Source: Pseudomonadota bacterium
Lineage (GTDB): Bacteria; Pseudomonadota; Gammaproteobacteria; Steroidobacterales; Steroidobacteraceae
DNA length: 15,633 bases
Direction of reading: 5' to 3'
Assembly (NCBI GenBank): GCA_021805275.1
Contig: JAJZFQ010000056.1
Location: 1-15,633, forward strand
A program made the position numbers and the translations under genes. How positions within the stretch are numbered: the stretch's first letter is position 1; every line of letters starts with the position of its first letter. Positions 1 to 15,553 of the stretch are shown in pieces. The notes beneath the pieces are model-generated. The model made no database searches, was not told the origin of the DNA, and worked only from the letters and a program-made list of their open reading frames with translations.

Positions 1-683
1 CCGAGCAGCCCCACATCGATAAAGCCCGGCCAGTAGTGGATCTTGTCGGCCGCATGCATGATGACGAACAACAGCGTGCTGATCAGCACGGCAGTCACGA
101 CATGAAAGCGCTGGACGAACGCGGCAATCAATGTTCCGCGAAACGCGAACTCCTCCACGAAAGGAGCCATCCCCAGCATCAGCACGACAAGAACGATGTA
201 CGGCCACCCGTGGCTTCTGCTGAGCTGTTCGGCAGGCCCAGTCAATTTTGCAATAACCGGCGGAACAACTCGCGCGAGACCCAATGCCACCGCGACCACG
301 ACAAGACTCAAGCCCGCAGCCACGAGGTATCCGTGTCGATCAGCTCCACGCCAGCCAAGTCCCCGCGGATCACCGACTTTCAGCAGCGGCTTGGCTATGT
401 AGAACGAGTACCAAATCGCCCATGCCGCTGCCAGCAGATATCCGGTGAGTACGGACGCCGCCAGGAGACCAAGCCCCGGGGTCGGAATGTGCACAGGCAC
501 CTTCCCGTGCGAGTCGCGAGCCAGGGTCGCTGCCTTGACGCCGATACCGATGCCCCAAAAGAACATCGTCAACACGCCCCCGACGAGCGTCGCAAGGAAA
601 AAGCCGCCCGCGAGCAATACTCCCTGCGCGGAGCCGAATTTGCGCGGCGCTTCAGCTCTCTCAGCGAGAGACGCGGCGTCCAC
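1..683 (-). CDS. CPBP-family intramembrane metalloprotease (partial, C-terminus off the window)
   Basis: This frame runs off the left edge; 227 codons are present from a GTG at 681-683, the only plausible upstream start after the previous gene's stop at 690-692. The translation is strongly hydrophobic with several membrane segments. It carries the CPBP motif VEEFAFRG (EExxxR, at about 135-158) followed by an F-x3-H motif (FVIMH, at about 54-68). These residues are expected to coordinate the metal in the membrane-embedded active site. The family includes CAAX prenyl endopeptidases and many proteins linked to bacteriocin operons, where they act in self-immunity or processing. Here it is the last visible gene of a bacteriocin export operon, so an immunity role is a reasonable inference, not shown. 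The Shine-Dalgarno at the GTG is weak; translation may be coupled to the gene before it. An IS66 insertion just upstream may be polar on it. Confidence 0.85.
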   Translation of the reverse strand, partial: MDAASLAERAEAPRKFGSAQGVLLAGGFFLATLVGGVLTMFFWGIGIGVKAATLARDSHGKVPVHIPTPGLGLLAASVLTGYLLAAAWAIWYSFYIAKPLLKVGDPRGLGWRGADRHGYLVAAGLSLVVVAVALGLARVVPPVIAKLTGPAEQLSRSHGWPYIVLVVLMLGMAPFVEEFAFRGTLIAAFVQRFHVVTAVLISTLLFVIMHAADKIHYWPGFIDVGLL

Positions 684-971
684 CTGCCGTCAGTCGCCCG
701 GCACTACCTTTGACGTGCTGCGCCTCGTGCCTGGCAGGACGCCCTTCCATGTCCCGATCACCGCGATGAGCAGAGCCACTACGAGAATTCCGAGACGAAC
801 ACCCAGCAGCAGGCCCGCATGTGCCCTTGCGAAGGCGATTCCAGCTTGCACGCCCCGCTGAAAGTTTGTGGTCTTGGTGGTCGATGAGATTACCGTCCCC
901 ATGACAATCATGTCCGCAATGGTCAAGACTAGCCAAGACACGATAAACCAGATGATTCCGAAAACTGTACG

Positions 972-979
972 CTTCAAAA
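972..979. repeat. Target site duplication, left copy
   Basis: CTTCAAAA directly abuts the left end of the IS (position 980). An identical octamer lies directly outside the right end at 3747-3754. Eight base pairs is the duplication length known for the IS66 family, so this marks the exact insertion point. Confidence 0.96.
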
Positions 980-1005
980 GTAAGGACTCCGCAAACCCCG
1001 TGCTT
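980..1005 (+). repeat. IS66 terminal inverted repeat, tnpC-side end
   Basis: The repeat begins GTAAGGACTCCGCAAACC reading inward. It pairs with 3721-3746, with three mismatches over 26 positions. Confidence 0.93.
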
Positions 1006-1145
1006 GCACCGAGCTGCATGAGCGCGTAGGCACCGGGGAGAATCGGCGGGGGTGTATATGGGGCGGACTGCCGCTGAGGCGGCCGGGGCGCGAGGGGATC
1101 GGCAGCGCGTTGCGGCGCCGGGTCAGGGACTGGAGGAGGCGCGAG

Positions 1146-2891
1146 TCAGGCGGCTGGTCGAGCGGCCGGCAGGGCGGCCCGGGCGTTCCAGGGCAGCAGG
1201 GCTTCGAGCGCCTCGATGGTATCGGCGCCGGGCAGGCGCTCGAAGATGAAGTTCAGGTACGCGTGGGGTTCGATGCCGTTGTCGCGGGCGGTCGAGACCA
1301 GGGAGAAGAGATTGGCGCTGGCGCGGGCACCGAAGGGGTTGTGACAGAAGAGCCAGACGCGGCGTCCCTGAGCAAACGGACGGATCCGGTTCTCGGTATC
1401 GTTGTTATGTATCGGAACCTCGCCGTGCTCGAGGTGCCTCACGAGCTTTGGCCACTGATTTGTCGTATAGGCGAGCGCCTTACCGAGGGCGCTCTGCGGC
1501 GGGGTACCGGGCAGCAGGTCGTCAACCCAATGCTTGAACGCTGTGAGGATAGGGGCGGACTTCTCCTGCCGCAGCTTCAACACCTCCTCGATCGTCAGCT
1601 GCGAGCCATCCCGCTCGCGCTGCTTGCGCAGGTCCTTGATGTCCTGCTCGATCTTGAACACCGGCCCGAGATACTCCCGCATCGCCACGCCCGCGAGCGT
1701 CCGCCCGGAGGGAAGCTCGGTCACCTTCAGCGCCTTGTGGAAGTACGTGCGACAATGTTGTAAACAGCCAAAATGTTCGAGCTTCAGCTGCTTGGCCACG
1801 ATGTCATAGAGTTCGAGCCCGTCGGTGAGGAGCTTGCCGCGGTACGGCCCGTCCGCGCCGTCCAAGAGGCTCTTCAAAGCTTCGGCCGTGCGTGAGGGAA
1901 TGTAATCGAAGAGAATGATCCGCCGCCCCGGCGGACCCGCGCAGCGCACCACCATGTAGTGATCCGAACTCGGGGATTTCTCCGAGCGCAGCACCTGAAG
2001 GTACGTTTCATCCATCTGGATGAGCGGATGGGCGAGCAGATCATCGTTCATCAGGTTGATCAGCGGCACCACGCTCTCTGCGCCCAGCGTGTTGACCCAG
2101 GTGCCCACCGTCCCGGGGCTCAAGAGCACATCTTGACGCTCCATCTGCCGGCAGACCCGGTAAAGCGGCAGCCCGTCGTCGAACTTCGAGGTCACAAGAT
2201 GCGCCAGCAGCGAGGCGCTGGCGTTGGACTTCGGCAGGATGCTCTTGACCGCCGCGGCGACCTTCACTCCCTCGTGACACTCTCCGCAGGCGTACTTCGG
2301 ATACACGTGCCGCTCGACCCACACCTTCGGCGCCTCGTAGTGATAGCGCTCGCTGACTTCCTCCCCGATGCGCTGCCTCGCCCAGCACACCCCTTCGTGC
2401 TCGTGCGTGCACCACTTCTCGTGCACCAGCAGGTCGTGAACGATGTCCTGGCGGGGCAGATGCGGCGGGATCGGCTCGCGCCCGCCGCTGTGCGGGCGCG
2501 CCTTGCGCTCGTGGGCAGCTACTGTCGTGGTGCGCTCCTGCTCGGCAGCCTCCGCCGCTGCGATGGCTGCCAGTACCTCCGCCTCGTTGAAGAGAATCTT
2601 CTGATCGGGGGAGACGCTCTGCGCAGGGAGCTTCTCTGAGGAGCGCCCGTAAAGCTGAGCCTTCAGGAACCGCACCTCCTCTTCGAGCATCCCCTTGCGC
2701 TCGAGCGCCTGGCGGTGTTCGCTCTCGAGCTGCTCGTGGACCTGTTTGAGCCGCTCGTGCGCCTGCTTGACCTGACGGATGGTCTCTTCGGAGACCTTCA
2801 GCCGCGCCTGAAGTTCGGCGTTCTTCTCGAGGGATTGGTTGTGGTGCAGTGCGGCGGGCACGGTGCAAAGTATACCGCGCCCGCCGCACAA
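1146..2891 (-). CDS. tnpC: IS66-family transposase TnpC (DDE)
   Basis: A protein of up to 581 residues that catalyses IS66 transposition. It begins with a long charged coiled-coil (about residues 18-85) and a GRSSEK motif typical of the family. A Cys/His-rich zinc-binding region follows (WCTHEHEGVC ... YACGEC, about residues 160-205). The catalytic core then shows the expected acidic residues in QMDETY, LLTDGLELYD and NNDTENRIRPF (first D, second D, then E). The last segment ends in an Ala/Pro-rich tail. The frame continues directly from the tnpB stop at 2907-2909. No ATG is available, so a TTG at 2889-2891 or a GTG at 2859-2861 is the likely start; the exact start is uncertain. Nothing suggests inactivation. 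Confidence 0.95.
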   Translation of the reverse strand: MCGGRGILCTVPAALHHNQSLEKNAELQARLKVSEETIRQVKQAHERLKQVHEQLESEHRQALERKGMLEEEVRFLKAQLYGRSSEKLPAQSVSPDQKILFNEAEVLAAIAAAEAAEQERTTTVAAHERKARPHSGGREPIPPHLPRQDIVHDLLVHEKWCTHEHEGVCWARQRIGEEVSERYHYEAPKVWVERHVYPKYACGECHEGVKVAAAVKSILPKSNASASLLAHLVTSKFDDGLPLYRVCRQMERQDVLLSPGTVGTWVNTLGAESVVPLINLMNDDLLAHPLIQMDETYLQVLRSEKSPSSDHYMVVRCAGPPGRRIILFDYIPSRTAEALKSLLDGADGPYRGKLLTDGLELYDIVAKQLKLEHFGCLQHCRTYFHKALKVTELPSGRTLAGVAMREYLGPVFKIEQDIKDLRKQRERDGSQLTIEEVLKLRQEKSAPILTAFKHWVDDLLPGTPPQSALGKALAYTTNQWPKLVRHLEHGEVPIHNNDTENRIRPFAQGRRVWLFCHNPFGARASANLFSLVSTARDNGIEPHAYLNFIFERLPGADTIEALEALLPWNARAALPAARPAA

Positions 2892-2906
2892 TACAACATC
2901 AAATGA

Positions 2907-3266
2907 TCACGCCGCGCGAGAGAATCTCAACATCTGATGCGGCTGCCTCCAGATGTCGTAACCCTCGAGCAGCCACTCGAGCTGCTCGGCAGAGAGCGTC
3001 ACCACCTCCTGCTCGATCAACCGCGGCCAGATAAACTTCTCCCGGCCCCCGATCACTTTGTGGCAGACCCAAAATCCGTTCTTATGCCAATAAAGGGTCT
3101 TCACCGCATTGAAACGCCGGCCGACGAAAATCATCAGCGCGCCCGAGAATGGATCGACCTTCATCACCTCCTGGGCGAGCGCTGCCAAACCGTTGCGTCC
3201 TTTCCTCATGTCTACCGGCTCGCGGTACAGGTACACCTTCAGCCCTTGCGCGCACGGGCGCATCAT
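2907..3266 (-). CDS. tnpB: IS66 accessory protein TnpB
   Basis: A 119-residue protein of the IS66 Orf2/TnpB family, which is required with TnpA for IS66 transposition though its biochemical role is not settled. Diagnostic stretches are VYLYREPVDMRKGRNGLAAL, GALMIFVGRRFNAVKTLYW and a C-terminal QLEWLLEGYDIW. I chose the ATG at 3264-3266 because its bases overlap the tnpA stop as ATGA, the usual translational coupling in this family, and because conserved sequence begins immediately after it. A second ATG follows directly. A longer reading of the frame, starting at 3332, would only add poorly conserved sequence that overlaps tnpA. Confidence 0.95.
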   Translation of the reverse strand: MMRPCAQGLKVYLYREPVDMRKGRNGLAALAQEVMKVDPFSGALMIFVGRRFNAVKTLYWHKNGFWVCHKVIGGREKFIWPRLIEQEVVTLSAEQLEWLLEGYDIWRQPHQMLRFSRAA

Positions 3267-3655
3267 GGCCGCGCCCCCACCAGAGCGGACACCCAGCTCG
3301 ACTCCGGCCAACTGCCGCACTCGATCATCCACCCGCTCGGATGACGCAGCCGGCAGACCAACCCCGCTGCTGCAGCCGCCACCGGCACGGCCGGCTCAAC
3401 CACCCGCACGGCCACAAAGCGTCCCGGCACCGCACTCCTGCGCGGCTCCTTCGCTCCCGCTGTCCCCTCGGTCTGCTGCACAGGCGGCAATATCCCCTTG
3501 CGCCGCATCTGCCGGCGCATGCTGTACAGGGAAAACGGGTTCAGCCCCACGGAACGGCAGTACTGCGACAACCCCATCCCCTGGCTGCGCGCTTGCCGAA
3601 CGTGTTCCAGGTATCGCCGTTCCCCCGCGGTCAACTCTTCACGCTTCGCGTTCAT
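3263..3655 (-). CDS. tnpA: IS66 accessory protein TnpA (helix-turn-helix)
   Basis: A 130-residue protein at the 5' end of the IS66 operon. The N-terminal half holds a helix-turn-helix-like region (residues about 10-50, with LSQYCRSVGLNPFSLYSMRR). Then come a charged linker and an Ala/Val-rich C-terminal half with the LRHPSGWMIE stretch typical of IS66 OrfA. A good ribosome binding site (GGAGG) lies about 6 bases before the ATG at 3653-3655. Its TGA overlaps the tnpB start by 4 bp (ATGA). The role is inferred from the family: DNA binding or regulation that supports transposition. Confidence 0.92.
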   Translation of the reverse strand: MNAKREELTAGERRYLEHVRQARSQGMGLSQYCRSVGLNPFSLYSMRRQMRRKGILPPVQQTEGTAGAKEPRRSAVPGRFVAVRVVEPAVPVAAAAAGLVCRLRHPSGWMIECGSWPESSWVSALVGARP

Positions 3656-3720
3656 CTCGCCCTCCAGTCTGCGGCGATAGCGCCGCCATCGAGAGCATCT
3701 CCCGCTCAGCTGAAACGGGG

Positions 3721-3746
3721 AAGAACGCGGTTTACGGAGTCCTTAC
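3721..3746 (-). repeat. IS66 terminal inverted repeat, tnpA-side end
   Basis: Read on the minus strand from 3746 this begins GTAAGGACTCCGTAAACC. It matches the other end at 23 of 26 positions and defines the right IS boundary. Confidence 0.93.
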
Positions 3747-3754
3747 CTTCAAAA
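3747..3754. repeat. Target site duplication, right copy
   Basis: CTTCAAAA is identical to 972-979 and directly abuts the IS end at 3746. Confidence 0.96.
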
Positions 3755-3770
3755 CGACCCTCCAGCTCAT
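3747..3770 (-). pseudogene. 5' fragment (start codon and first residues) of the IS-split membrane protein gene
   Basis: An ATG at 3768-3770 begins MSWRVV and reaches the IS insertion point. It follows the TAA of the upstream gene (3774-3776) after only 3 bases, as expected within an operon. Joining 3755 to 979, that is, deleting the IS and one copy of CTTCAAAA, gives one open frame MSWRVV-LKRTVFG to the stop at 690. Translation from this ATG now runs into IS sequence. Confidence 0.85.
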
Positions 3771-3773
3771 TTG

Positions 3774-4214
3774 TTACTTCATGAGTCTGCGACAAAAAAA
3801 ATACGTCCCCCATTGACCGCCCGCAAATATCGGCGTTGCTGTCATGACCCACTCAACATACTTTGGCGAGAAATTTGTTCCTAACAGTATTAGGATCGCA
3901 AATGCGTTAATCGCCACTGGTAGAATAAAGGCGGTTTGCGCCAATGCGGCAACAGGGCCTTTAACCGGGACCACTGAACAAGGATCAAGGCTGCCGTGAT
4001 GGCGATTCTCTCGATGCGGACATAACACAAAAATTTCAAGTACAAAGCCGCCAATCAGACCCGCCAATCCTGTTGCCAAAGCATTCCCTAAAAGCGACGC
4101 CCCGATTTTGGTATAGAATACAGACCAACCAGCTAGCATTGATATGGTGCTTATTGTCGCCAACATTCTCTTATAATGAAGTAAATTCATTTCGTCATAA
4201 TCGATAGTAACCAT
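3774..4214 (-). CDS. Predicted four-helix membrane protein, bacteriocin-operon immunity candidate
   Basis: A 146-residue protein that I do not recognise as a named family. It has about four hydrophobic segments: residues about 20-35, 38-65, 88-113 and 122-140. A charged, His-rich loop (CPHRENRHHGS) separates the second and third. A ribosome binding site (AGGGA) lies about 6 bases before the ATG at 4212-4214; Met9 is an alternative start. The gene lies directly downstream of the double-glycine precursor, the classic position for a bacteriocin immunity protein, and immediately before the IS-split membrane gene. Its GC content is strikingly low (about 32-47% in 60-base blocks) against the GC-rich transporter genes, which points to a different origin. 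A hairpin that includes its ribosome binding site precedes it. Immunity is inference from position and topology only. Confidence 0.8.
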   Translation of the reverse strand: MVTIDYDEMNLLHYKRMLATISTISMLAGWSVFYTKIGASLLGNALATGLAGLIGGFVLEIFVLCPHRENRHHGSLDPCSVVPVKGPVAALAQTAFILPVAINAFAILILLGTNFSPKYVEWVMTATPIFAGGQWGTYFFCRRLMK

Positions 4215-4219
4215 CCAAT

Positions 4220-4259
4220 CCCTGCGACCAGAGCGATATTTCTCGTTCTGGCCGCAGGG
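4220..4259 (-). promoter_or_regulatory. Hairpin between precursor and membrane gene, overlapping the ribosome binding site
   Basis: The arms CCCTGCG-a-CCAGA and TCTGG-c-CGCAGGG pair almost perfectly around a loop of about 14 bases. On the minus-strand transcript it lies between the precursor stop and the next ATG. Its 3' arm includes the GCAGGGA that would serve as the ribosome binding site for the 146-residue protein. No run of U follows, so it does not look like a standard terminator. Sequestration of the binding site or protection of the upstream precursor message are both possible. Confidence 0.7.
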
Positions 4260-4286
4260 GTATCCGCCATTCTCAGGCGGTACTAC

Positions 4287-4541
4287 TTAAGTTGCGGCCG
4301 CACCAGCCGAAGCACCGATGATGCCACCAACATCGGCACCGTATGCGCCCCCGAGGACCGCTCCTACTGCCGCACCAATCGGCCCGCCAACTAAGCCGCC
4401 CATTGCCGCGCCCGCCTCTACGCCACCCCACGCACCGAGAGCATAACCAGCAAGTCCGCCACCAGCTCCGCCGAAAAACTCCATCCACTTAAAAAGTCCG
4501 CCACCAACCTGCTCAACCTCAGTTGCTGTCAATGTACGCAT
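4287..4541 (-). CDS. Double-glycine-leader bacteriocin/microcin precursor
   Basis: An 84-residue precursor. The leader MRTLTATEVEQVGG fits the double-glycine consensus (L4, E8, V9, V12, G13-G14), the recognition site for C39 peptidase transporters such as the one encoded just upstream. Cleavage after G14 would release a 70-residue core starting GLFKWMEFF. The core has 24 Gly and 17 Ala, no cysteine and few charges, with repeated GxxxG and small-xxx-small spacing (for example GGPIGAAVGAVLGG), as in membrane-inserting class II bacteriocins and ColV-like microcins. The ATG at 4539-4541 has a GAGGT about 6 bases upstream and begins the leader exactly; the frame also extends to 4613 but that stretch is not leader-like. 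Only one precursor is seen, so a single-peptide agent is likely, although a partner may lie off-window. The killing spectrum cannot be read from sequence. Confidence 0.88.
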   Translation of the reverse strand: MRTLTATEVEQVGGGLFKWMEFFGGAGGGLAGYALGAWGGVEAGAAMGGLVGGPIGAAVGAVLGGAYGADVGGIIGASAGAAAT

Positions 4542-4649
4542 GATATACCTCGTCTTGGTGATCGCTGGAAATGCGTTTGCCGTTCCAGCTTCGGCCTGAA
4601 AAGTTGCAGCCAAGAGACGTCAATCGAGACCGACCGTGTCCGAATCCTT
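4542..4649. other. Spacer between transporter stop and precursor start
   Basis: These 108 bases hold no other gene. On the minus strand they contain the precursor ribosome binding site and a TTGACG hexamer that could be a -35 element, but no convincing -10 lies at the right distance. A separate precursor promoter is therefore possible but unproven. Confidence 0.4.
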
Positions 4650-6788
4650 TCATCCCGCACCCCCGGTCCCCAGAGCTGTCGAGTCGGCGCACCCTCTCCC
4701 GAGCACGATCACCCGATCGGCACTCGCGAGGGTCTCCGGCCGATGCGCCAGCACCAGCCGGGTAATTCTCAGGCGCTTGATGAGCGCGTTGATCTCGCGC
4801 TCTCTCGCCACATCGAGATGGCTCGTCGCCTCATCGAGCACCAGGAACTTCGCTTGCCGGTACAACGCTCTCGCCAGCAGCACTCGCTGGCGCTGCCCGC
4901 CGGAAAGGCTCGAGCCCATATCCCCGACGAGGGTCTGATAGCCCATGGGCAGGGCAGCGATTTCCTCGTGGATACCTGCGAGATGAGCCGCAGCCGCCAC
5001 CGCTTGGGGCGTCGCCTCGGGATCGAACAGACTGACGTTGTCGGCGATGGAGCCCGCAAAGAGCTGATCGTCCTGCATCACTGCGCCGACCTGCGCTCGG
5101 TAGCGCGCAAGGCCGAGCTTGCGGATATCGATCCCGCCGAAGCGGATTTCTCCCTCGGTCGGCTCGAGCAGCCCCAGGATCAGCTTCGCGAGCGTCGTCT
5201 TGCCTGCCCCCGAAGGCGCGGCGATCGCGACGCTCTCCCCAGGCTCGACCGTGAGATTGAAATGTTCGAGCACCCAGGGGTCCCCCTCGGCATATCGGAA
5301 GCTCAGGTTCCGCACCTCGAGCCGGGTACTTTCGAGCTCATCGGTGTGTACGCCCTCAAGGTGGATTTCCGGTTCGCTGAGCGCGATATCCGCCACCCGC
5401 TCGGCGTGCAGCTCGAGCATCCGGAACTCGTTCCACCGGTCGATCAGGGCCGCGCCCCGGCGATGAAACTGATCCACATAGGCGATGAAGGCCACCAGCA
5501 TCCCGGCGCTGAATTGCCCCTTGAGCACCAGCGCGGCCGCCCACCAGATGAGCGCGACGCGCGCCAGGCCGAAGAGCAGCCCGCTGCCCGCCTGCGCGCC
5601 GATTCCGAGCCGCTGCAGGGCGATCTCTCGATTGGTCGTGTCCACCTGTGCATTGGCATAGCGCCCCTGGCGATGCGATTGCTGGTTCGCGAGCTTGATC
5701 GCCTGGATGCCCCGGATCGACTCCAGCAGATCGCTCTGCTGCCGCGCTGCATACACGATGTGATCTTCGGTCGTGCGCCGCAGCGACCGGTAGAGCAGCC
5801 CGCGCAGCAGGCCGTAGAGGGCGAACGTGCCCACCACGAGCAGCGTCAGCGGCACACTGTAGAAGGCCATCAGCACCAGGGTGAGGATCGAAACCAGCCC
5901 ATCGAGCACCGCCCCGACGAACTGCGTGGTGAGGGCCTTCTGAATGGTCTGCACCGAACCAAAGCGTGAGACCACATCCCCGATGTGCCGCTTCTCGAAG
6001 AACGCGAGGGGCAACTTGAGCAGATGCCCGAACAGGTTGTTCACCCACTGCACGCCCAAGGTGGCGCTGATCCAGGTGATGCACCACGCGCGCAGCGCCG
6101 TCACCCCCACCTGAAAGACCGTCAGCATCAGAAAGCCGATCCCGAGCACGGTGAGCAGCGGATGATCGGCGCTCGGGAAGACCTGATCGAGCATCCACTG
6201 CATGTAGAGCGGCCCTGCGAGCACCATCGCCTCGAGCGCGAGCGCAAGCAGCAGGATCTGGGTGAGGGCGCGTTTCAGCCCGTACACCTCACCGCTCAAC
6301 GCCCGCAGCGAGATGGCTTCCCGCACCCGCACCCGCTTGAAGCGCGCGGAGGGCCACAGCTCGAGCGCGACCCCAGTGAAATGCTTCGACACCTCCGTCC
6401 AGGTCAGCCGCTGCACCCCGCGGGCCGGATCATGGATGACGATTTCCTTCGCCCCGGCATGTTTCAGCACGACGAAGTGATTGAGATCCCAGTGCAGGAT
6501 GCAGGGCGTCTTGAGCGCTGCGAGATCGTCGATCTCGAGCCGCAGCGCACGGGTATCGAGCGCCAGCTGCCCGGCAATGTCCATCACCCGCCGCAGCGTC
6601 GCGCCCTTCAGCGACATCGAGGCTTTGCGGCGCATGCCCGGCAGATCGATCTCGTAGCCGTAGTAGCTCGCCACCATGGCGAGGCACGCCAGGCCGCACT
6701 CGGCCGCCTCGGTCTGCAGGATCACCGGCAGCCGCTTCCCGCCCCCGAAGCGCAGCCCCGCGAGCACGCTCTCGGCGGCCGCACTCAT
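4650..6788 (-). CDS. Peptidase-containing ABC transporter (C39 bacteriocin exporter, CvaB-like)
   Basis: A 712-residue transporter that removes double-glycine leaders and exports the peptide across the inner membrane. The N-terminal C39 peptidase domain has all expected residues: Q25 (oxyanion), C31 in AAECG, H104 in LNHFVVLK and D120 in IHDPARG. The transmembrane region spans roughly residues 160-450. The ATPase domain has Walker A (SGAGKTT), Q-loop (VMQDDQ), signature LSGGQRQR, Walker B (FLVLDEATS) and the H-loop (LAHR), so it looks fully functional. I chose the ATG at 6786-6788, which overlaps the stop of the membrane fusion protein gene as ATGA; the frame continues up to 6896 but that part overlaps the upstream gene. 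The length is normal for the family. It pairs with the fusion protein upstream and the precursor downstream, and needs a TolC-like channel not encoded here. Confidence 0.97.
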   Translation of the reverse strand: MSAAAESVLAGLRFGGGKRLPVILQTEAAECGLACLAMVASYYGYEIDLPGMRRKASMSLKGATLRRVMDIAGQLALDTRALRLEIDDLAALKTPCILHWDLNHFVVLKHAGAKEIVIHDPARGVQRLTWTEVSKHFTGVALELWPSARFKRVRVREAISLRALSGEVYGLKRALTQILLLALALEAMVLAGPLYMQWMLDQVFPSADHPLLTVLGIGFLMLTVFQVGVTALRAWCITWISATLGVQWVNNLFGHLLKLPLAFFEKRHIGDVVSRFGSVQTIQKALTTQFVGAVLDGLVSILTLVLMAFYSVPLTLLVVGTFALYGLLRGLLYRSLRRTTEDHIVYAARQQSDLLESIRGIQAIKLANQQSHRQGRYANAQVDTTNREIALQRLGIGAQAGSGLLFGLARVALIWWAAALVLKGQFSAGMLVAFIAYVDQFHRRGAALIDRWNEFRMLELHAERVADIALSEPEIHLEGVHTDELESTRLEVRNLSFRYAEGDPWVLEHFNLTVEPGESVAIAAPSGAGKTTLAKLILGLLEPTEGEIRFGGIDIRKLGLARYRAQVGAVMQDDQLFAGSIADNVSLFDPEATPQAVAAAAHLAGIHEEIAALPMGYQTLVGDMGSSLSGGQRQRVLLARALYRQAKFLVLDEATSHLDVAREREINALIKRLRITRLVLAHRPETLASADRVIVLGRGCADSTALGTGGAG

Positions 6789-8125
6789 GTGCGCACTCCC
6801 GCCGCGGCGGGTTTTCGAGGGGCGGACACCGCCGATGCCGGCGACGCGCTCGCCATCATCCGCCGGCTGAACCCATAGAGCGGCTCGAGGACCCATTCGA
6901 TCAGCCGCCGCCGATCGAGCAGGATGTCCGCATGCAGCGCCATCCCGGGGCGCAACGCGACCGGTTGCCCGTACGCCCGCACGGTCTGACCCCGCAGGCG
7001 CACCATCACCCGGTACAGCGGCGCGGTGCTCTGCCGCCCGACCAGTGCGGCCACCTCCTGCGGCGAGAGGGCACTGCGCGAGACTTGACCGACCTCGCCA
7101 AAATGCAGCCCGAACCGCTGGTATGGAAATGCCTGATAGCGCAGCACGACCTGCTGGCCGCGACGCACAAAGCCGACCGCCGAGCTCGGCACGAGCAGCT
7201 GCGCCTCGAGCCGCGAGCGCCTCGGCACCACCGTCAGCAGCGGCTCACCGGCGCTCACCGTCTCACCCGGCTTGATCAGCAGGGTCGCGACAATCCCCGC
7301 CCGGGGCGCCTTCACCACCCACTCGCGCTGCGCCTCGTTCTGGGCGAGCGCCTGCTCGACCTGCGCGAGCTTGTTGCGCGTGGCATTCTGCTGCGCCGCC
7401 AGCGTCAGGGGAACCTGCGCCCGCTGCTGCCGGGCCTGCGCGAGCTGTTGCGCAAGACCCAGCCGCTCCCGCTGCAATGCTTTGACCTGCAGTTCCGCGT
7501 TGAAGGTATCGGCCTGCTGCTGCTGCAGGTCGTAAAGCGAAATGATGCCCTGCTTGCGAAGCGGCATGATGCTCTTCAGCAGCGTCGCCATGTTCACCGC
7601 CTCCTGGCGCTGCAGCACCAGCTGTGCGTCGATCTGCTGAAGCTGCGCCCGCAGACTCGTCACGCTCTGGCGCAGTGTCGCGCTCTGGCTCGCCGCGAGC
7701 GCCCGCTGCGTCGCGAGGTCCTGCTCGAGCCCCTTGCGCTCGGTGTCGAGCTCCGCGGTGATGAACGCCAGCGTGTTGCCGAGCGCGGCGCTCTCGAGCG
7801 GGTTGTCGAAGCTCGCGAGCGTTTGCCTGGCCGACACTCGCTCTCCCTGATGTACGTTGACGGCGAGCACATCGCCCGCATCCGTGGCATTGAGCGTCAC
7901 GAGTCCCGAAGATGGCACCAGCGTGCCCTGCACCGTGGCTCGTTGCGTGTAATGCCCCAGAACGAGATAGGTCACCGCCGCAACAACAAATGCCACGGCC
8001 AGCAAGCTCACCGCCCAGAACGCTGGCGGCGTGTTGATCTGAATGCTACCCAGAGCGGCGCGGCGCTGAGATTCCAGCGCTGCGATCCTGAAAAGCCCCT
8101 GACTCCCCCCTTGCTCTTCGTCCAT
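6785..8125 (-). CDS. Membrane fusion (periplasmic adaptor) protein, HlyD/CvaA-like
   Basis: A 446-residue adaptor that links the ABC exporter to an outer-membrane TolC-type channel. The N-terminus has the LFRIAALESQ...LGSIQI stretch typical of CvaA-type adaptors of bacteriocin exporters. A single inner-membrane anchor follows (residues about 35-56), then a first lipoyl-like half (about 65-105), a long Gln/Ala/Leu-rich coiled-coil hairpin (about 110-260) and the second lipoyl half with KAPRAGIVATLLIKPGETV. I chose the ATG at 8123-8125 because conserved sequence begins there; the frame is open up to 8203. It ends with TGA overlapping the transporter ATG, so the two are translationally coupled. 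It is the first gene of the visible operon. Confidence 0.95.
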   Translation of the reverse strand: MDEEQGGSQGLFRIAALESQRRAALGSIQINTPPAFWAVSLLAVAFVVAAVTYLVLGHYTQRATVQGTLVPSSGLVTLNATDAGDVLAVNVHQGERVSARQTLASFDNPLESAALGNTLAFITAELDTERKGLEQDLATQRALAASQSATLRQSVTSLRAQLQQIDAQLVLQRQEAVNMATLLKSIMPLRKQGIISLYDLQQQQADTFNAELQVKALQRERLGLAQQLAQARQQRAQVPLTLAAQQNATRNKLAQVEQALAQNEAQREWVVKAPRAGIVATLLIKPGETVSAGEPLLTVVPRRSRLEAQLLVPSSAVGFVRRGQQVVLRYQAFPYQRFGLHFGEVGQVSRSALSPQEVAALVGRQSTAPLYRVMVRLRGQTVRAYGQPVALRPGMALHADILLDRRRLIEWVLEPLYGFSRRMMASASPASAVSAPRKPAAAGVRT

Positions 8126-8173
8126 CTCGATCTTTTTTTCGGTCAGACCCGCATCAAATGCTATTTTGCGTTG

Positions 8174-8203
8174 AGTGTAGCGCCATGCGCCATTGAGACA
8201 CAA
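8174..8203 (-). promoter_or_regulatory. Possible promoter of the bacteriocin operon
   Basis: On the minus strand TTGTGT (8198-8203) and TACACT (8174-8179) are spaced by 18 bases, about 50 bp ahead of the fusion protein start. A second candidate -10, CATAAT, lies at 8215-8220 without a good -35. Both are weak matches; the placement before the first gene of the operon is the main support. Confidence 0.3.
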
Positions 8204-8461
8204 CGTTCGGTTCGATTATGTGAACAAGACCAATTTGCACGCGGCGTATTTCGTTGGCATGACAACACCCCGCTGCTCCCCAGTCCTCAGCAATGGTCCT
8301 CGGCTGGACCGAGTCCAGCTCAGCGAACTCCGTCACTCGGCGCCAGTGATCGCGCTTTGGGAGAACTCGTCGCTGACAGCGTCGACGTCACGTCACAGAT
8401 CTGGATCGGGGTTCCGAGTCTGCGTCCACCCGCAGAACGCGCGCCGTCCAACCGAGGCCAT

Positions 8462-8480
8462 GCGGGGCTACGGGCCCCGC
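8462..8480 (-). terminator. Strong hairpin downstream of the relaxase gene
   Basis: GCGGGGC and GCCCCGC form a perfect 7-bp GC stem with a 5-base loop, about 95 bp beyond the relaxase stop. No U-tract follows, so termination is only a possibility. Confidence 0.35.
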
Positions 8481-8574
8481 CCCGTGCTGCCAGGCGCATG
8501 CCTGCAATACCTCCCGCCTCGCATGCTCGGGTGATTCTTGGGATGGCGTGGAATCCGGTCTCCGCAGCGCGAGC

Positions 8575-10626
8575 CTACCTGCCGAAGTCCTGCTCGTCCT
8601 GCTCACCCTGGTGATCCTGCCGCTGCACCGTGGCGCGGTCCTGATGTCTCGCCTCCGTGACGGACCGAGGCACTCTCCCTCCGGCATCCTGGCAATCGAG
8701 CATCCTGTGCCATGCATTGAGCAGCCCGTCTCCTGGGTGCTCGCGCTTGCGGCCGGCCTGCTCGGCATCCTCGAGCCATGCGGTTCGCTCGTGGCTGCCG
8801 ATGTGCTGCCACCAGACCATCAGCTCCCGATGCGACGGGTGGGAGCGCTCGATGCATGGGACGCGCTCGAGAACCGCAGGCGCGCCATCGGCCTGCGCTC
8901 CGCTTGCCATTCGGGCCTGCTCGTCCATGACGATCCGCGCCAAATCGGTATCCACGACACGGATACCCTCACGCGCCGCCTGCCGCGCCATCCGCTCCCG
9001 AAACTCCCCACTCCCAGTGAGCGAGACTGCCCCGCCGAAGCGGGCGGCGGCGATCTTGAGCGCGGCGGCCTCCGCCGCCTCGTCGTGTCGGACCAATTCG
9101 AGACGCGTGCGCGTCGCCGTGAAGACCTCGCGACCCGCCCGGTCCCGGTATCGCTTGCACCGCGCCACTGCGTCCCACTCGTAGTCCAGGCCGCAGGCCC
9201 GCGCCACCGCGATCTCCGCAGTGCGGTAACCTGAGATCAGCCCGCCTGTGCTCCCGGCGCCATCGCGCATGCGCTCACGTGCGGCCTGCACTTGGCGCTC
9301 GCGCGTACGCTTCGCCCGTGCACGCAGCGTTGCACGGCACTCGGCCTGAAGCTCGAGGTGCGCGAGCTTGAGCGCCGAATAGTCCTTCTGCGCGTGTGGC
9401 TTCGCGCGCCCGATGCGAGCCTCACGTTCGTTCTCGGCCATCCATGCCGTGCGCAGCGACGGGTACCCTTCATCGAGCGGAATACCCCGCCCGCGCGCGT
9501 GCGATTCGAGAGCGAGGCGCGCGCGCGTAATCTCCTCCGGAGTGATTTTCTTCGGGTGCGCGGCCTCTGCCGCCTGCGCATCGGCGCCCGCGCGCTCGAG
9601 CGCCCGCGTCACATGAGCGCTGTGAGACTTCGTGTCCTGCGCTTCCCGCCGCGCCTCGCCTGCTGCCTTCTCCGACGCCGCGGCGCGATGCTCGAGGGCC
9701 TCATATTCGGTTCGGTCTCGCTGCGCTCGCCGGACCTGGTCCAGAACCTCGCGGAATACCCGCCGACGATTGTCCGGCGTCGTGTGAGCGAACGATGGCG
9801 GCATGTCCGCCGCGTCGCCGAGGTCCCGGGAGCGTTCGAACAGTTCGGCCTCGAGTGCCTCGATCCGCGCTTGCAGCTTCACCGGTTCGCGTTGCCGCTC
9901 GCGCGCGGCCTCCTGCATCATCGCGCGGTATTCGCGGTGATTGACGTGCCCGCGCCGCGGCAATCCGGCGCGCCGCGCGGTTTCGCGCTGCGCCGCCACC
10001 CGCGCCCGGCGCCCCGCCGCGCTCTCGCCCGTTACGAGGCCGCAGGTCATGTCTTGCACCCGGCGCATCGTCTCGCGGTCGAGCTCAATCACGCTCACCC
10101 GCGCCGGGATGCGGCGCTCGCCCGTCTTGGTCTGGATCAAGTGCGCCTCGCACTCTTGCATGCGATCCACGAGCACATGCGCGTGGGGATTCGCCTGCAT
10201 CTCCCCGGTCGGCTCGTCAATGTGGCCTTCATCGAAGTGCACCGCGCATTGGAGGACTCCGTGCCCGGTCAACGCCTCATACCCTTGACACCACTCGACC
10301 ATGGTGTGCGTCAGGCGATCGCGGTACGCATCGACGCTCTCCCCTGGATCGCGCAGCGGCAGCACCACGACCCCCGACCAGAACGGGGAGAACGCCTTCG
10401 CCCGCTTCGCCCGCTCGGAACACCGCGCGAGCCGCGCTATGTAGCGGTCGTGGAGGCCCGGATCGTTGTGCACCAGCACCGACTCGAGCACCTGACCGCT
10501 CGAATCGCGCAGCCGATGCTCCGGCGGCAAGAGATACCGTGGCTCCCGTCCCTCGCGGCGGTTGTGCCGATCTTCGTGCCGCAGATTTCTCACGGCCTTG
10601 AAATTGACGCTCGTGCCACGTGCCAT
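8575..10626 (-). CDS. MOBV/Pre-Mob-like relaxase
   Basis: A 683-residue protein that should nick oriT to start mobilization. Near the N-terminus is RHNRR (His21 to Arg24), matching MOBV motif I (HNxR, the catalytic His in MobM-type enzymes). VHFDE (H130, D132, E133) and NPHAH (H148, H150) match the metal-binding motif III, HxDExxPHxH, with an unusual extra 10 or so residues between the two halves. The remaining 500 residues are Arg/Glu/Ala-rich and largely helical; residues around 640-680 are very Gln/Asp-rich. The ATG at 10624-10626 has an excellent ribosome binding site (GGAGAGGT). The frame is open far upstream to 11688, but that part lacks conserved features and overlaps the intergenic repeats. 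It is divergent from the 169-residue gene, with the likely oriT between them. The exact MOB class would need a profile search. Confidence 0.85.
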   Translation of the reverse strand: MARGTSVNFKAVRNLRHEDRHNRREGREPRYLLPPEHRLRDSSGQVLESVLVHNDPGLHDRYIARLARCSERAKRAKAFSPFWSGVVVLPLRDPGESVDAYRDRLTHTMVEWCQGYEALTGHGVLQCAVHFDEGHIDEPTGEMQANPHAHVLVDRMQECEAHLIQTKTGERRIPARVSVIELDRETMRRVQDMTCGLVTGESAAGRRARVAAQRETARRAGLPRRGHVNHREYRAMMQEAARERQREPVKLQARIEALEAELFERSRDLGDAADMPPSFAHTTPDNRRRVFREVLDQVRRAQRDRTEYEALEHRAAASEKAAGEARREAQDTKSHSAHVTRALERAGADAQAAEAAHPKKITPEEITRARLALESHARGRGIPLDEGYPSLRTAWMAENEREARIGRAKPHAQKDYSALKLAHLELQAECRATLRARAKRTRERQVQAARERMRDGAGSTGGLISGYRTAEIAVARACGLDYEWDAVARCKRYRDRAGREVFTATRTRLELVRHDEAAEAAALKIAAARFGGAVSLTGSGEFRERMARQAAREGIRVVDTDLARIVMDEQARMASGAQADGAPAVLERVPCIERSHPSHRELMVWWQHIGSHERTAWLEDAEQAGRKREHPGDGLLNAWHRMLDCQDAGGRVPRSVTEARHQDRATVQRQDHQGEQDEQDFGR

Positions 10627-10732
10627 ACGTACCTCTCCGTGACTTGTCACCCCATTCCGCCCTGCGGACCGCACACCCACTGCGTGGAGCACCCACCGCG
10701 TCGAGCACGCACTGCAGACCGCACAACCCACG

Positions 10733-10759
10733 GGCGGCACAGGGCTTGCCCTGCCGCCG
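10733..10759. repeat. GC-rich hairpin upstream of the relaxase
   Basis: GGCGG-CA-CAGGGC pairs with GCCCTG-CCGCC across a 2-base loop, a strong imperfect hairpin about 110 bp before the relaxase start. It could be part of oriT or act on relaxase transcription. Confidence 0.6.
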
Positions 10760-10831
10760 CCGTTCTTTGCACCACATCCCCCCCGGCGCAGCCGATGCCG
10801 TCCGCAGGACACGTCCGCAAGGACCGCAAGA

Positions 10832-10887
10832 GGACATGGCGCGGCCATGTCCTTAATGCGCATTAAGGACGTAGCGCGGCTACGTCC
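10832..10887. repeat. Hairpin-palindrome-hairpin array
   Basis: Two perfect hairpins with 9-bp arms and the same GCG loop lie at 10832-10852 (arm GGACATGGC) and 10867-10887 (arm GGACGTAGC). They flank a perfect 14-bp palindrome, TTAATGCGCATTAA, at 10853-10866, with no spare bases. The 56-bp array is itself nearly symmetric. Further GGAC-containing repeats precede it (10808-10834). It is the strongest oriT or relaxosome-binding candidate in the window. Confidence 0.9.
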
Positions 10888-10948
10888 CATGCTTACTCCG
10901 CTGCGCGGGCCCCTCTCGGCTGCCGCTCGGGGTGCGAAGGCGCGGCTG

Positions 10949-10984
10949 GCGACAAGTCGCGGGTGTGGGGTGGAGACAAGTCTC
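10949..10984. repeat. Two spaced GACAAGTC mini-palindromes
   Basis: GCGACAAGTCGC at 10949-10960 and GAGACAAGTCTC at 10973-10984 share the core GACAAGTC, each with 5-bp arms. They start 24 bp apart, a little over two helical turns, as expected for paired binding sites of a dimeric protein such as a relaxosome accessory factor. Confidence 0.7.
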
Positions 10985-11009
10985 GGTCCCTCGGTCAGAA
11001 CAGAGCGGC

Positions 11010-11058
11010 GGGGAATACGCGAGAGGGGCCCACGCCGGGGAATAAGGGAGAACGGCCC
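11010..11058. repeat. Imperfect direct repeat before the accessory gene
   Basis: Two copies start GGGGAATA and end GGCCC, 27 bp apart (11010-11031 and 11037-11058). They lie just ahead of the ribosome binding site of the downstream gene and could be an operator or protein-binding repeat. Confidence 0.5.
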
Positions 11059-11088
11059 GCAACGTGCGGACCGAGACGGAGAGTCCCC

Positions 11089-11598
11089 ATGACCCGGAAA
11101 TCTAATCCCCCGCGTGAAATCGATCCGCTCAATACCGCACTCCTCGCGGCGGTGCGCGCGAAACCGCCCAGCAATCTGCCGTCGGCGCGCGTGCTGTACG
11201 CGATCCGCAAGCTCGTCACGGATGGATACACTGACGAGGAAATCTCCGCCGGGCTCGCCAGCGCACACATCACGGTCGCCGCCCCCGAACTCGACGCAGC
11301 GCTCAAGTCCGTGCGCGATGCGCGTGCGATCCGTGCGGCACAACGCGCGGCTCGGAAGAGCCCGCCGCAGAGTGCCTCCCAACAGACGGAGCCGCCCGCC
11401 GCCGGGCCGGGAGCGACCGCGCTTGCTGCGCAGCGGATCAGCGTACGATTCGGGATGAAGCCCGCCAGCACCCGCCCGCTGCGGGATGCTGGACTGGAGT
11501 ACCTCGACGGGGCGTGGCGCGGCGCAGTCGCGCCAGACAAACTGGAGGCTCTGCGGCGGTTCACGGCTGAACACGGCGGCACACTCGAGACGGCATGA
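11089..11598 (+). CDS. Unrecognised 169-residue protein, candidate mobilization accessory factor
   Basis: I do not recognise a named family. The ATG at 11089-11091 has a GGAG ribosome binding site. Residues about 25-60 look like a small helical domain (ARVLYAIRKLVTDGYTDEEI) resembling a helix-turn-helix, followed by an Ala/Arg-rich helix, a Pro/Gln/Ala linker (residues about 90-115) and a C-terminal segment with DAGLEYLDGAWRG. The protein is basic and probably binds DNA. It is divergent to the relaxase across a repeat-rich gap, the place where MobC-type relaxosome accessory genes usually lie, so such a role is plausible. It is the only plus-strand gene in the window and ends at a strong bidirectional hairpin. 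Confidence 0.75.
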   Translation: MTRKSNPPREIDPLNTALLAAVRAKPPSNLPSARVLYAIRKLVTDGYTDEEISAGLASAHITVAAPELDAALKSVRDARAIRAAQRAARKSPPQSASQQTEPPAAGPGATALAAQRISVRFGMKPASTRPLRDAGLEYLDGAWRGAVAPDKLEALRRFTAEHGGTLETA

Positions 11599-11606
11599 GC
11601 GCGCTT

Positions 11607-11639
11607 GCGCCCGGCGGCGCAGGAGGGACCGCCGGGCGC
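11607..11639. terminator. Bidirectional hairpin terminator between convergent genes
   Basis: GCGCCCGGCGG and CCGCCGGGCGC form a perfect 11-bp GC stem with an 11-base loop, sitting between the plus-strand stop at 11598 and the minus-strand stop at 11646. On the plus strand it is followed by ATTCTTC, a weak T-rich tail. The position between convergent stops supports termination in both directions. Confidence 0.8.
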
Positions 11640-11645
11640 GATTCT

Positions 11646-13265
11646 TCATCCCGATGCGGGCGCCGCTCCCGCCACTACCCGATAGCACCGTGTCTTGGTG
11701 TGGCTGTCACGCCCGGCATCGCTGATCTGCAGGCCGTCCACCACCTGCCCCACTCGTTCGGCAAGATAATTGCCAACGCGCAGCGCGTTGAGCCTTCCGC
11801 CACCGTCCGAGCCAATACCGAGCAGCGCTTCTCGCAACGCCGTACCTTCCTCTTGCGCTGCGGCTCGCATCAACGCCGCGACCGTCACCCCGCGTTCGCC
11901 ACACGTTGCCGTCCAGGCGGCAAGCAGGAGGCGCAGCGCCTCACGCTCGGGGTCTGCATCCTCCAGTGCCGACTGTGTTTCAATGGGATCGGCACGCCCG
12001 AGCCAGATGAGCGGATACCTCACCAGGCGATCCCACTGATGAAACCGCGACGGCCGCACCGCGAGCATGGGCGCCCCGGCGGCAAGATACGACAATGGGA
12101 TCGTCAGTGCCGCGCGCACCAACTGCGCACGGTGCTCAGTGATGAATGCCGCAATGTCGCGTTGATACACACGCTCCTGTGGGCGATCGAGACCGGTATC
12201 GAGCGCGCACCCGAGGGCTCGAGTCGTCAGGTCACCGACGAGGCGCAATCCATTGCCGGTGATGATCATCGTCACGGCCGTCGAGACTCGTGCCATAGTA
12301 CTGCTGCGGATGATGCGATCCTGATAGCTGCCCGATGTCAGCGCGGCGCAGAGCGCCGCACTGTCGACGGGGTCCACGGCGTTATCGAGACAGACCACTG
12401 GGTCGCCCGCCATGAGCACACCGAGCAGGCGCCGGCCAAGCTCGGCGGCTTCTTGGTCGAGCGGGATCACCGCCGCCTCGCACCCGGTCAGGATACGCGA
12501 GACGATGTGCGCAAGGGCCGTCTTGCCGCTCGACGCTTGCTTCGCGGTGACAGCGAGGGCCGGCGCAGTGTCGAGCGCGCGGCGCACCAACGCCGTAATG
12601 ATTGCCGCACGCATCGCGCTCGCCGACGGCGATTGTGCTCCCCCGACAAACGCGCACTCGGACAACAGATCATCGAGCACGAGCAACGCTTCCCGCGCCT
12701 CCTCCAGACTCGGAGCGGCGGCCAGCTGCGGATATTCCATGCCGCCGAAATCCGCGTACAGGCCGCTTTGGACATCGTACCCCTCGCGATCGAGTACCGA
12801 GCCATCGTCACGCAGCGTCGGTGCCATGACGATGCCCCGCAGTACCGGCAGGTGCCACTCCCCAGCAAGCGCCAGCAACTCGCGCGCCACCGCAATCGGC
12901 GGGTCAATGACCCGCGGTTGCCCTCGTTTGTCGAGCGTTTCCCAATCCGCCGCGCGCGCCAGCGCGTGGCTCAGCCAGTCCGCCGTGACGGCCGCGATGA
13001 CGAGACTCCCGGCCGCACGGCGCACACCGCCCAAATCAGTGTCGGCGTCGATCCGGGCGATCCGCACCAGCCGCTCCCCCTGTTGATACACTCTGCCCAC
13101 GGCGATCAACGCCGATTCGGCGGCGCGCACCGCCGCCGGGCGCTGCCCAGGCTCGACCCGGATCGCCGGGCGCGGAAAGGGTATGAGGGTGCCGTCTCGA
13201 CCGCCCTGAGAGCTTCCACCGCGGTCCGGGGCATCCCCCCCGGACGCGGTCTCCTGCGGATTCAT
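11646..13265 (-). CDS. P-loop helicase/primase-like ATPase of a mobile element
   Basis: A 539-residue protein. The middle contains a family-typical stretch LPVLRGIVMAPTLRDDGS (residues about 139-156), found in primase/helicase-like proteins of phages and islands. It is followed by a P-loop AKQASSGKT (residues 241-249; K248, T249), a Walker B-like VVCLDN (290-295), a sensor-like TGN (336-338) and a conserved Arg (TTRA, 347-350) that could be the arginine finger. No zinc-binding or TOPRIM primase motif is evident, so a helicase or D5/AAA-type ATPase is likelier than an active primase. It starts with ATG at 13263-13265, overlapping the AlpA-like gene's stop by 4 bp, so it is translationally coupled. 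A role in replication or stabilisation of the excised element is inferred. Confidence 0.8.
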   Translation of the reverse strand: MNPQETASGGDAPDRGGSSQGGRDGTLIPFPRPAIRVEPGQRPAAVRAAESALIAVGRVYQQGERLVRIARIDADTDLGGVRRAAGSLVIAAVTADWLSHALARAADWETLDKRGQPRVIDPPIAVARELLALAGEWHLPVLRGIVMAPTLRDDGSVLDREGYDVQSGLYADFGGMEYPQLAAAPSLEEAREALLVLDDLLSECAFVGGAQSPSASAMRAAIITALVRRALDTAPALAVTAKQASSGKTALAHIVSRILTGCEAAVIPLDQEAAELGRRLLGVLMAGDPVVCLDNAVDPVDSAALCAALTSGSYQDRIIRSSTMARVSTAVTMIITGNGLRLVGDLTTRALGCALDTGLDRPQERVYQRDIAAFITEHRAQLVRAALTIPLSYLAAGAPMLAVRPSRFHQWDRLVRYPLIWLGRADPIETQSALEDADPEREALRLLLAAWTATCGERGVTVAALMRAAAQEEGTALREALLGIGSDGGGRLNALRVGNYLAERVGQVVDGLQISDAGRDSHTKTRCYRVVAGAAPASG

Positions 13266-13462
13266 TGTCCCTCCCGCGCGGCGAGCCACTGCTCGAGCGT
13301 GGAGCGGCGGATGCCGCTCGCGCGCGGCCCGAGCTTCAACAGTGGTGGAAACTTCCCCTGACGGATCAGGCGATGGATCTGCGCACGGCTGACGCCCACA
13401 ATGGACGGCAGCGCGTGCGTGCGAATCACCGGATCGACCGATGTGTGAAGATGTTCCGACAT
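13262..13462 (-). CDS. AlpA-family winged-helix regulator/excisionase
   Basis: A 66-residue DNA-binding protein. The core LPSIVGVSRAQIHRLIRQGK followed by FPPLLKLGPRASGIRRSTLEQWL is the standard AlpA/MerR-like helix-turn-helix plus wing. AlpA proteins regulate the integrase or act as recombination directionality factors in P4-like islands. Its TGA overlaps the next gene's ATG. The integrase lies two genes upstream, so a role in excision control fits. The ribosome binding site is modest (AGGT). The family call is secure, the specific function inferred. Confidence 0.9.
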   Translation of the reverse strand: MSEHLHTSVDPVIRTHALPSIVGVSRAQIHRLIRQGKFPPLLKLGPRASGIRRSTLEQWLAAREGQ

Positions 13463-13558
13463 GGAAATACCTGCGCATCATGCGAATGGGCCGGTGTTTC
13501 ACGGCCCGCGTGCCAGGTTGAAGGGCGCGACGCGCGCGCCTAGCGTCCCCCGCGCGTC

Positions 13559-14059: not shown

Positions 14060-14071
14060 CAGTGACGTCTA

Positions 14072-15415: not shown

Positions 15416-15466
15416 GGCGGGGCTCCTGCGGGGCCGCTGCGGGGGGTCCGATGTACAAACCCCGCA

Positions 15467-15509
15467 TACCGTCACAGGGCTCTACCGTCACCGCCGATCA
15501 TACCGCCAC
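15467..15509. repeat. Three iterated TACCGTCAC sites upstream of the integrase
   Basis: TACCGTCAC occurs at 15467-15475 and 15483-15491, and TACCGCCAC at 15501-15509, spaced 16 and 18 bp apart. They lie between the integrase start and the tRNA end and overlap the predicted -10. They are candidates for integrase arm sites or for AlpA/integrase operators. Confidence 0.6.
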
Positions 15510-15526
15510 GAGGAGGGATTCACCAA
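15497..15526 (-). promoter_or_regulatory. Predicted integrase promoter
   Basis: On the minus strand TTGGTG (15521-15526) and TATGAT (15497-15502, 5 of 6 matches to the consensus) are separated by 18 bp. Transcription would begin about 75 bp before the integrase ATG. A TACCGCCAC repeat overlaps the -10 and two further copies lie downstream, so autoregulation is possible. Confidence 0.5.
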
Positions 15527-15536
15527 TAGCGCGGGA

Positions 15537-15553
15537 TGTCGCACAGTGTCGCA
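15537..15553. repeat. Short direct repeat TGTCGCA near the attachment site
   Basis: TGTCGCA occurs at 15537-15543 and again at 15547-15553, 10 bp apart, one helical turn. It lies between the tRNA end and the integrase promoter, followed by an AT-rich stretch (15566-15590). It may be an integrase or excisionase binding site. Confidence 0.4.

Follow-up and report, generated by a model that had tools for sequence, protein, structure and literature searches.

The window, by which we mean the whole 15,633 bases (G+C 65.5%) of contig JAJZFQ010000056.1 from a Steroidobacteraceae genome (GCA_021805275.1, our G000), carries on its minus strand a set of four genes that is probably a class II microcin-type bacteriocin operon on an integrative mobile island, encoding a glycine-zipper peptide that would insert into membranes and a protein that would give immunity to it. 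Window bases 1-12,622 match contig C125 of a 2.73-Mb assembly at 99.98%, and the remainder runs past the end of that contig. The order of transcription is periplasmic adaptor, exporter, precursor peptide and a membrane open reading frame (ORF), and then IS66 genes, a 109-residue ORF and a gene for a CAAX-type protease; all four module frames are open. The genes and their order, the motifs, the zipper, a hairpin, the conservation of the exporter and the divergence of its cargo are directly observed. A first-pass annotation had described a complete module of three genes, and ORF and Pfam scans bear out the adaptor, exporter and precursor at the positions it gave, but it was one gene short, having missed the 146-residue membrane ORF (4214-3774) that lies after the hairpin.

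The exporter (4650..6788, 712 residues) is a C39 peptidase/ATP-binding cassette (ABC) protein, that is a peptidase-containing ABC transporter (PCAT), with Pfam matches over cut-off to Peptidase_C39 (5e-34), ABC_membrane (3e-35) and ABC_tran (5e-31); its matches to the NCBIfam exporter models are all sub-cut-off. The annotation had credited it with all catalytic residues, and we do find Q25, C31, H104 and D120 in the C39 domain, which we take to be those residues, with Walker A at 525, the signature at 628 and Walker B at 649. Solved relatives covering most of its length include the ABC-type bacteriocin transporters 4ry2 and 8vp3, and it is the sole C39 peptidase match in its own assembly (E <= 0.001). 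The HlyD/CvaA-type adaptor (6785..8125) has 446 residues counted from the ATG at 8125, the frame staying open upstream to a TTG at 8203; it matches HlyD_3 (2e-14) and HlyD_D23 over the Pfam cut-off, and TIGR01843 below the cut-off of that model. The exporter start and adaptor stop overlap as ATGA at 6788-6785, which is the coupling originally reported. As relatives' loci we used the best 80 of the exporter matches in named records; among these the nearest exporters are from the metagenome-assembled genomes SKS3.bin44 (92%) and DX1.bin8 (74%), followed by those of Rhodanobacter, Dyella and Mizugakiibacter, which match at around 64%.

The precursor (4287..4541, 84 residues) is separated from the exporter by 108 nucleotides, and is recognised by this position, by a Shine-Dalgarno-like GAGG that precedes its ATG, by its leader and by a related precursor in G041, another genome of the same genus. 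The putative double-glycine leader, MRTLTATEVEQVGGG, comprises 15 residues (4497..4541) and is indicated by its register with relatives and by a sub-threshold match to MccV (PF17508). That match is the best-scoring in Pfam (12.2 bits, E 0.28, under the cut-off of 27), and it runs from precursor residue 1 at profile position 1 through residue 49 at position 50. The nearest PHROG is a family of unknown function (E 0.0096), and a solved-structure search with the precursor gave one match, which was not significant (E 0.15). When the precursor is aligned with its relatives, VSGG|IFKW lies beneath VGGG|LFKW, and the usual spacing in double-glycine leaders is Glu at -8, hydrophobic residues at -7 and -4, and glycines at -2 and -1. 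On these two grounds the predicted cut is after G15, and the mature peptide most likely has the 69 residues from LFKW to the final AAAT (4290..4496). The first-pass annotation was thus right to see a double-glycine leader but probably off by one in its core of 70 residues beginning GLFKW.

The predicted 69-residue core has a net charge of -2 and no Cys, and is 58.0% Gly+Ala (58.6% for the 70-residue version). The earlier description of a Gly/Ala-rich core lacking Cys is therefore accurate as far as it goes, but incomplete, as the core is a perfect glycine zipper. It has one Ser in total and the C-terminus GASAGAAAT, and does not have the Gly/Ser-rich, siderophore-bearing C-terminus of class IIb microcins.

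It is the length of the zipper that makes the peptide unusual; otherwise it is of a known kind. Set out in groups of four from residue 9 onwards, the core is GGAG GGLA GYAL GAWG GVEA GAAM GGLV GGPI GAAV GAVL GGAY GADV GGII GASA GAAA T, with Gly at each fourth position 15 successive times without a miss (precursor residues 24-80, 4302..4472). This is far beyond chance: when the residues were shuffled 100,000 times no run of 15 arose, the longest being 11, and the GxxxG count is 16 against 7.05 +/- 1.88 in shuffles (n=1000, none reaching 16). A 12-base DNA repeat was considered as the cause and is ruled out, since codons vary between units and Tandem Repeats Finder returned nothing, which implies that the zipper is kept at the protein level. 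For comparison we took double-glycine cores from the 80 named loci and five others including the window; 71 were picked by motif and the short ones dropped to leave 59 of at least 30 residues, with false matches retained. The longest run of Gly at every fourth residue among the 59 is that of the window, and the runner-up is 8. Runs of 15 occur in 4 of 10,705 stop-to-stop frames of at least 60 residues (1.27 Mb of partly overlapping loci), all of which print as the window locus, and one run of 13 in the same set (L054) is a dipeptide-type repeat. The listings of keyword searches of the literature showed no report of a zipper this long. The register crosses one Pro, one Glu and one Asp, and the placing of these between hydrophobic stretches suggests two or three membrane segments, whose glycine faces would let helices pack closely. 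A zipper with so regular a 4-residue period would be a clean test object for the insertion, assembly and neutralisation of glycine-zipper peptides. Longer zippers recur across unrelated genera. Runs of 6-7 are present in double-glycine cores of L118, L100 and L055 (Rahnella, Acinetobacter and Rhodanobacter).

The leader motif by itself is weak evidence, because Markov resamples of the window give 0.27 matches per window (60 resamples, maximum 2) and there is a second leader-motif ORF in the window, within the integrase frame. Unlike the motif alone, the place of the precursor beside the exporter is not weak evidence. At least 700 nucleotides are available past the exporter in 76 of the 80 relatives' loci, and in 21 of these there is a leader ORF on the exporter strand within 1.5 kb downstream (26 matches), against no matches on the opposite strand. 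Over a wider span of -4000 to +2500 the figures are 42 of 80 loci and, on the opposite strand, 7 of 80.

With regard to relatives of the precursor, a peptide search and structure prediction had been proposed as checks. The direct protein search was empty and a profile was therefore built from three precursors, those of the window, G041 and G079; this does reach zipper peptides, while the AlphaFold models are too poor to help. The three-row profile finds 16 proteins at E <= 0.01, among which P0004 contains G041's own precursor, P0003 is a near-copy of that of G079, and P0005, P0013 and P0014 are leaderless. Our first alignment holds 11 of the 16 and our second 13. In the relatives' consensus, MRELSxEELxLVSGG precedes a start that contains W and a core like GAVTGGxxGxxxGGxGAGPGAxGGALLGGIxY. 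Two of the proteins, P0009 and P0010, bear Bacteriocin_IIc (PF10439), a family of double-glycine bacteriocins. In a re-scan for this family at E <= 10 (cut-off 27.1), P0009 was over the cut-off at 39.7 bits (4.9e-10), P0004 (24.4 bits), G023's precursor (17.9 bits), P0006 and P0008 fell below it, and the window precursor itself was unmatched.

In 396 genomes of the order the three-row profile marked 8 at E <= 1e-4, including its sources G000, G041 and G079. A search of 99 genomes with the precursor gave 29 places, its own, the one beside the exporter in G041, and 27 others in open frames of 207-431 residues, not beside the exporter and matched via the core, which look like other glycine-rich proteins. 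In this search the G041 precursor was matched directly, at E 1.2e-5 as reckoned for one genome; in the alignment the two are 48% identical. The first-pass annotation had named a precursor frame not conserved among related clusters as the finding that would count against it, and in G041 the related precursor in fact sits immediately after the exporter. The three-sequence profile links the window and G041 precursors to double-glycine glycine-zipper peptides. In G079 (L123 10450-13202, minus strand) a pair of related glycine-zipper precursors, plus another leader ORF, stand in tandem with small hydrophobic ORFs upstream of the exporter, and this reads as a multi-peptide array.

The membrane ORF (3774..4214) begins 72 nucleotides after the precursor and is our candidate for the immunity gene. 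Two parts of it (about 41-68 and 87-117) are strongly hydrophobic. It has a G+C of 45% against 65.5% for the window, and two homologues at E <= 0.01, P0001 (95%) and P0002 (60%), neither of them named; its 146 residues fall inside the range of 51-216 that PMC10233263 gives for immunity proteins. There was no match in Pfam, NCBIfam, PADLOC or PHROG, nor any in a PADLOC scan of five proteins. Its C-terminus, RRLMK, resembles the RKLMN of P0002, from which the IS66 insertion seems to lie outside the ORF; P0001 ends otherwise.

The gap between precursor and membrane ORF holds a strong RNA hairpin (4220..4259). It has a 13-pair stem, and the 96-nucleotide region around it has a folding energy of -44.2 kcal/mol (z -6.1, with none of 200 shuffles as stable), and G041 has an unrelated hairpin in the same place (z -4.7); a cruder control by Markov resampling gives z -3.8 for the window and -4.8 for G041. 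The membrane ORF's likely ribosome site falls within the 3' arm, an arrangement that could couple translation of this ORF to opening of the hairpin; that the hairpin attenuates transcription or stabilises the RNA is a guess. Hairpins downstream of the precursor were rejected as a general mark of such genes, as z <= -3 was found for just 12 of 59 leader ORFs (Markov resamples).

The exporter is present in 4 of 58 same-genus genomes (E <= 1e-100), these being G000, G023, G024 and G041, a patchy distribution, and comparison of the four shows what is kept and what changes. G041 aligns with window positions 1-964 and with 4696-15633 (split into three pieces) at 81-85%, G023 matches 4693-13440 at 88%, and G024 only 4698-8080, at 90%. 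The intervals that these blocks enclose, 965-4695 in the window and 5933-6623 in G041, have no blastn similarity at 1e-10, and the flanks of the two islands are 81% identical. This slot holds the precursor, the 146-residue ORF and IS66 in the window, a 66-residue precursor and an unrelated 68-residue membrane ORF in G041, and in G023, in reversed order, a 73-residue membrane ORF and then a 63-residue precursor (three-row profile E 2.9e-5). The exporter is thus kept while the peptide and the membrane ORF beside it vary, a case of cargo exchange within one genus. In G024 (L121 9499-13243) a nucleotidyltransferase-like ORF (identified by eye) lies in the interval of about 1.4 kb that separates the open exporter frame from a tRNA-Gly. 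The sole leader-motif match in the flank of that exporter is a 31-residue frame with an 11-residue tail, which is not a credible precursor, and the G024 exporter may be an orphan or an island remnant.

Class II microcins are described in PMC10233263 by a list of five genetic parts, with a double-glycine signal of 15-18 residues and a core of 60-90. The window precursor divides into 15 + 69 residues, a C39 peptidase ABC transporter and a membrane fusion protein are nearby, the hydrophobic 146-residue ORF 72 nucleotides downstream is a candidate for the adjacent small inner-membrane immunity protein, and for the TolC-type outer membrane factor there are 16 OEP domain matches in the assembly, all over cut-off. 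All five parts are thus present, provided that the membrane ORF encodes the immunity protein and that an OEP/TolC-family protein of this genome acts as the outer channel. By this list the ColV-like or class II microcin system of the first-pass annotation is the best reading, its word functional being a prediction. Microcin V (CvaC/Cvi/CvaAB) and other class II systems share with the module the 15-18-residue double-glycine leader, C39 exporter, adaptor, use of TolC and core of 60-90 residues; the differences are that the window precursor matches MccV only below threshold (E 0.28) and has no class IIb Ser/Gly siderophore tail. Ten class II microcins, mostly from E. coli, had been validated by 2022 according to PMC9746304. 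The peptides are too divergent for simple family searches, and candidates are reported as widespread (PMC9746304, PMC13174018). Of 23 tested candidates from Pantoea, Erwinia and Xanthomonas, 12 were active against E. coli, their inhibition being far weaker than that by MccV (PMC13174018). The window adds a clear candidate from a proteobacterial genus of the family Steroidobacteraceae.

If this reading is right, the leader would be recognised and the C39 domain would cut the precursor after G15, the peptide leaving through the exporter, the adaptor and a TolC-family channel of the host. Packing of the 69-residue peptide along its glycine faces would then give helical hairpins or bundles, and these would enter and breach the inner membrane of related bacteria; the 146-residue inner-membrane protein would protect the producer. 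Expression, cleavage, export, killing and immunity are all predicted here from sequence.

Several results weigh against a class II microcin operon. The direct search of 5.8 billion proteins with the precursor gave nothing at E <= 0.01, the precursor is over cut-off in no family in the Pfam and NCBIfam scans, and of seven relatives re-scanned only P0009 passes Bacteriocin_IIc, with P0012 and P0016 unmatched at E <= 10. We also scored the precursor against a 9-row profile that leaves it out (P0003, P0004, P0005 and P0013 were dropped as duplicates or leaderless), the rows of which had originally been found with a profile that included it. With composition correction, leader and core together score 18.2 bits, equalled by 4 of 1000 controls in which a shuffled core follows the true leader, and the core alone scores -3.5, equalled by 22 of 1000 shuffled cores, so that the closeness of the window core to the relatives' group is uncertain; without composition correction none of 1000 controls equals either score. 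The immunity candidate is found in none of the other 57 same-genus genomes. The AlphaFold models have predicted local distance difference test (pLDDT) values of 52.9 for the precursor and 46.5 for the membrane ORF, too low for a fold search, and although the precursor model is helical this decides nothing at 52.9. A sigma-70-like promoter and a Fur-box-like site, the latter by its consensus, were looked for and neither was found.

The same cluster might work by Cdz-like delivery, in which the zipper aggregates on the producer surface and kills on contact only, as in Caulobacter; this is compatible with class II genetics and is possible, though not what we expect. The criteria for Cdz-like systems in PMC5380434 are a peptide of 60-151 residues, a leader ending G[G/A/S], a type I exporter within 10 kb, and one or two glycine zippers with proline or charge at their flanks and none within. 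The window has 84 residues, GGG, an exporter 108 nucleotides off, a glycine zipper and a small membrane protein as immunity candidate; G+A+V+I is 70% of the core against the 75% given for CdzC/D, and the genomic islands described there, with transposase, CaaX protease and cargo more variable than the exporter, resemble that of the window. However the register in the window runs through one Pro and two acidic residues and is unbroken for 57 residues, where the aggregation-prone zippers span 24 (CdzC) and 25 (CdzD), and the core has no charged or polar tail, ending GIIGASAGAAAT. Only one peptide is seen, whereas Caulobacter Cdz needs two, although a single peptide is predicted for most Cdz-like systems (PMC5380434). 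A further suggestion, which we regard as doubtful, is that the core is a distinct architecture, an uninterrupted (Gxxx)15 zipper that spans almost all of the toxin and could by itself form an ordered helical bundle or fibril, either within the membrane or on its surface; it would be carried as an exchangeable peptide-plus-immunity cassette in the fixed exporter slot of a mobilizable island.

It is unlikely that the cluster is a remnant, decaying since the IS66 insertion and no longer made. IS66 does lie directly after the membrane ORF and splits off the CAAX protease region, which in G041 comes next without a break, the G024 exporter has no credible cargo alongside, and P0001 ends differently from the window's ORF; but all four frames are open, and the ending shared with P0002 places the insertion outside the ORF, as far as can be judged. 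Double-glycine leaders also serve signals, and the product could be a signalling or surface peptide and not a bacteriocin. We think this very unlikely given a 69-residue hydrophobic zipper core, an adjoining membrane ORF of immunity size, variation of both between islands, and the lack of a sensor kinase in a scan of 15 window proteins, where the only regulator is the AlpA-type one of the island. Most improbable of all is that the precursor has its leader by chance and is an ordinary membrane protein with a glycine zipper, having nothing to do with the exporter. Weak matches to Gly-zipper_Omp (E 1.7) and YMGG (E 3.2) could be read in that way, as could the 27 of 29 genome matches that are long frames found via the core. 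Against it are a leader in register directly after the exporter, the related precursor that G041 has in the corresponding position, and the 26 leader ORFs on the exporter strand to none opposite, downstream of 76 relatives' exporters.

To return to a class II microcin operon as the preferred reading, a similar gene set has been characterised in Moraxella catarrhalis, where knock-outs and cloning of mcbABCI proved bacteriocin and immunity (PMC2761928). There too adaptor, ABC exporter, double-glycine bacteriocin and small immunity gene run in one direction, and peptide and immunity protein have little or no similarity to named proteins. The two differ in that mcbC and mcbI overlap, whereas 72 nucleotides and a hairpin separate the precursor from the membrane ORF in the window; McbC is predicted to be mostly beta, in contrast to the glycine zipper of the window core; and activity is proven in Moraxella and predicted for the window module.

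The other genes of the window relate to the island. Beyond the IS66 genes (3655-1146, minus strand, by protein-family scan), the region 3-1019 of the minus strand encodes the 109-residue ORF, which is hydrophobic, and the CPBP/CAAX-type protease (3..683, Rce1-like, 1.6e-9), which is truncated by the window end and is a possible member of the module. The protease is in 2 of the 58 same-genus genomes, G000 and G041, and absent from the other two exporter carriers; it could serve immunity or processing. At the other end (11646-15475, all minus strand) are a primase-like ORF, which matches phrog_29234 (2e-89, unknown function) and phrog_19930 (primase, 9e-19), an AlpA-type regulator and a tyrosine integrase, by PHROG and Pfam. 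This backbone is conserved at 81-85% in G041 and at 88% in G023 up to the contig end, and the module has the appearance of cargo carried by an integrative element. Upstream of the adaptor is an ORF with an LPD7 domain (8575-10650, minus strand), the N-terminal part of which contains HFDEGH...NPHAHVLVD, which resembles the MobV relaxase signature, and the island may be mobilizable.
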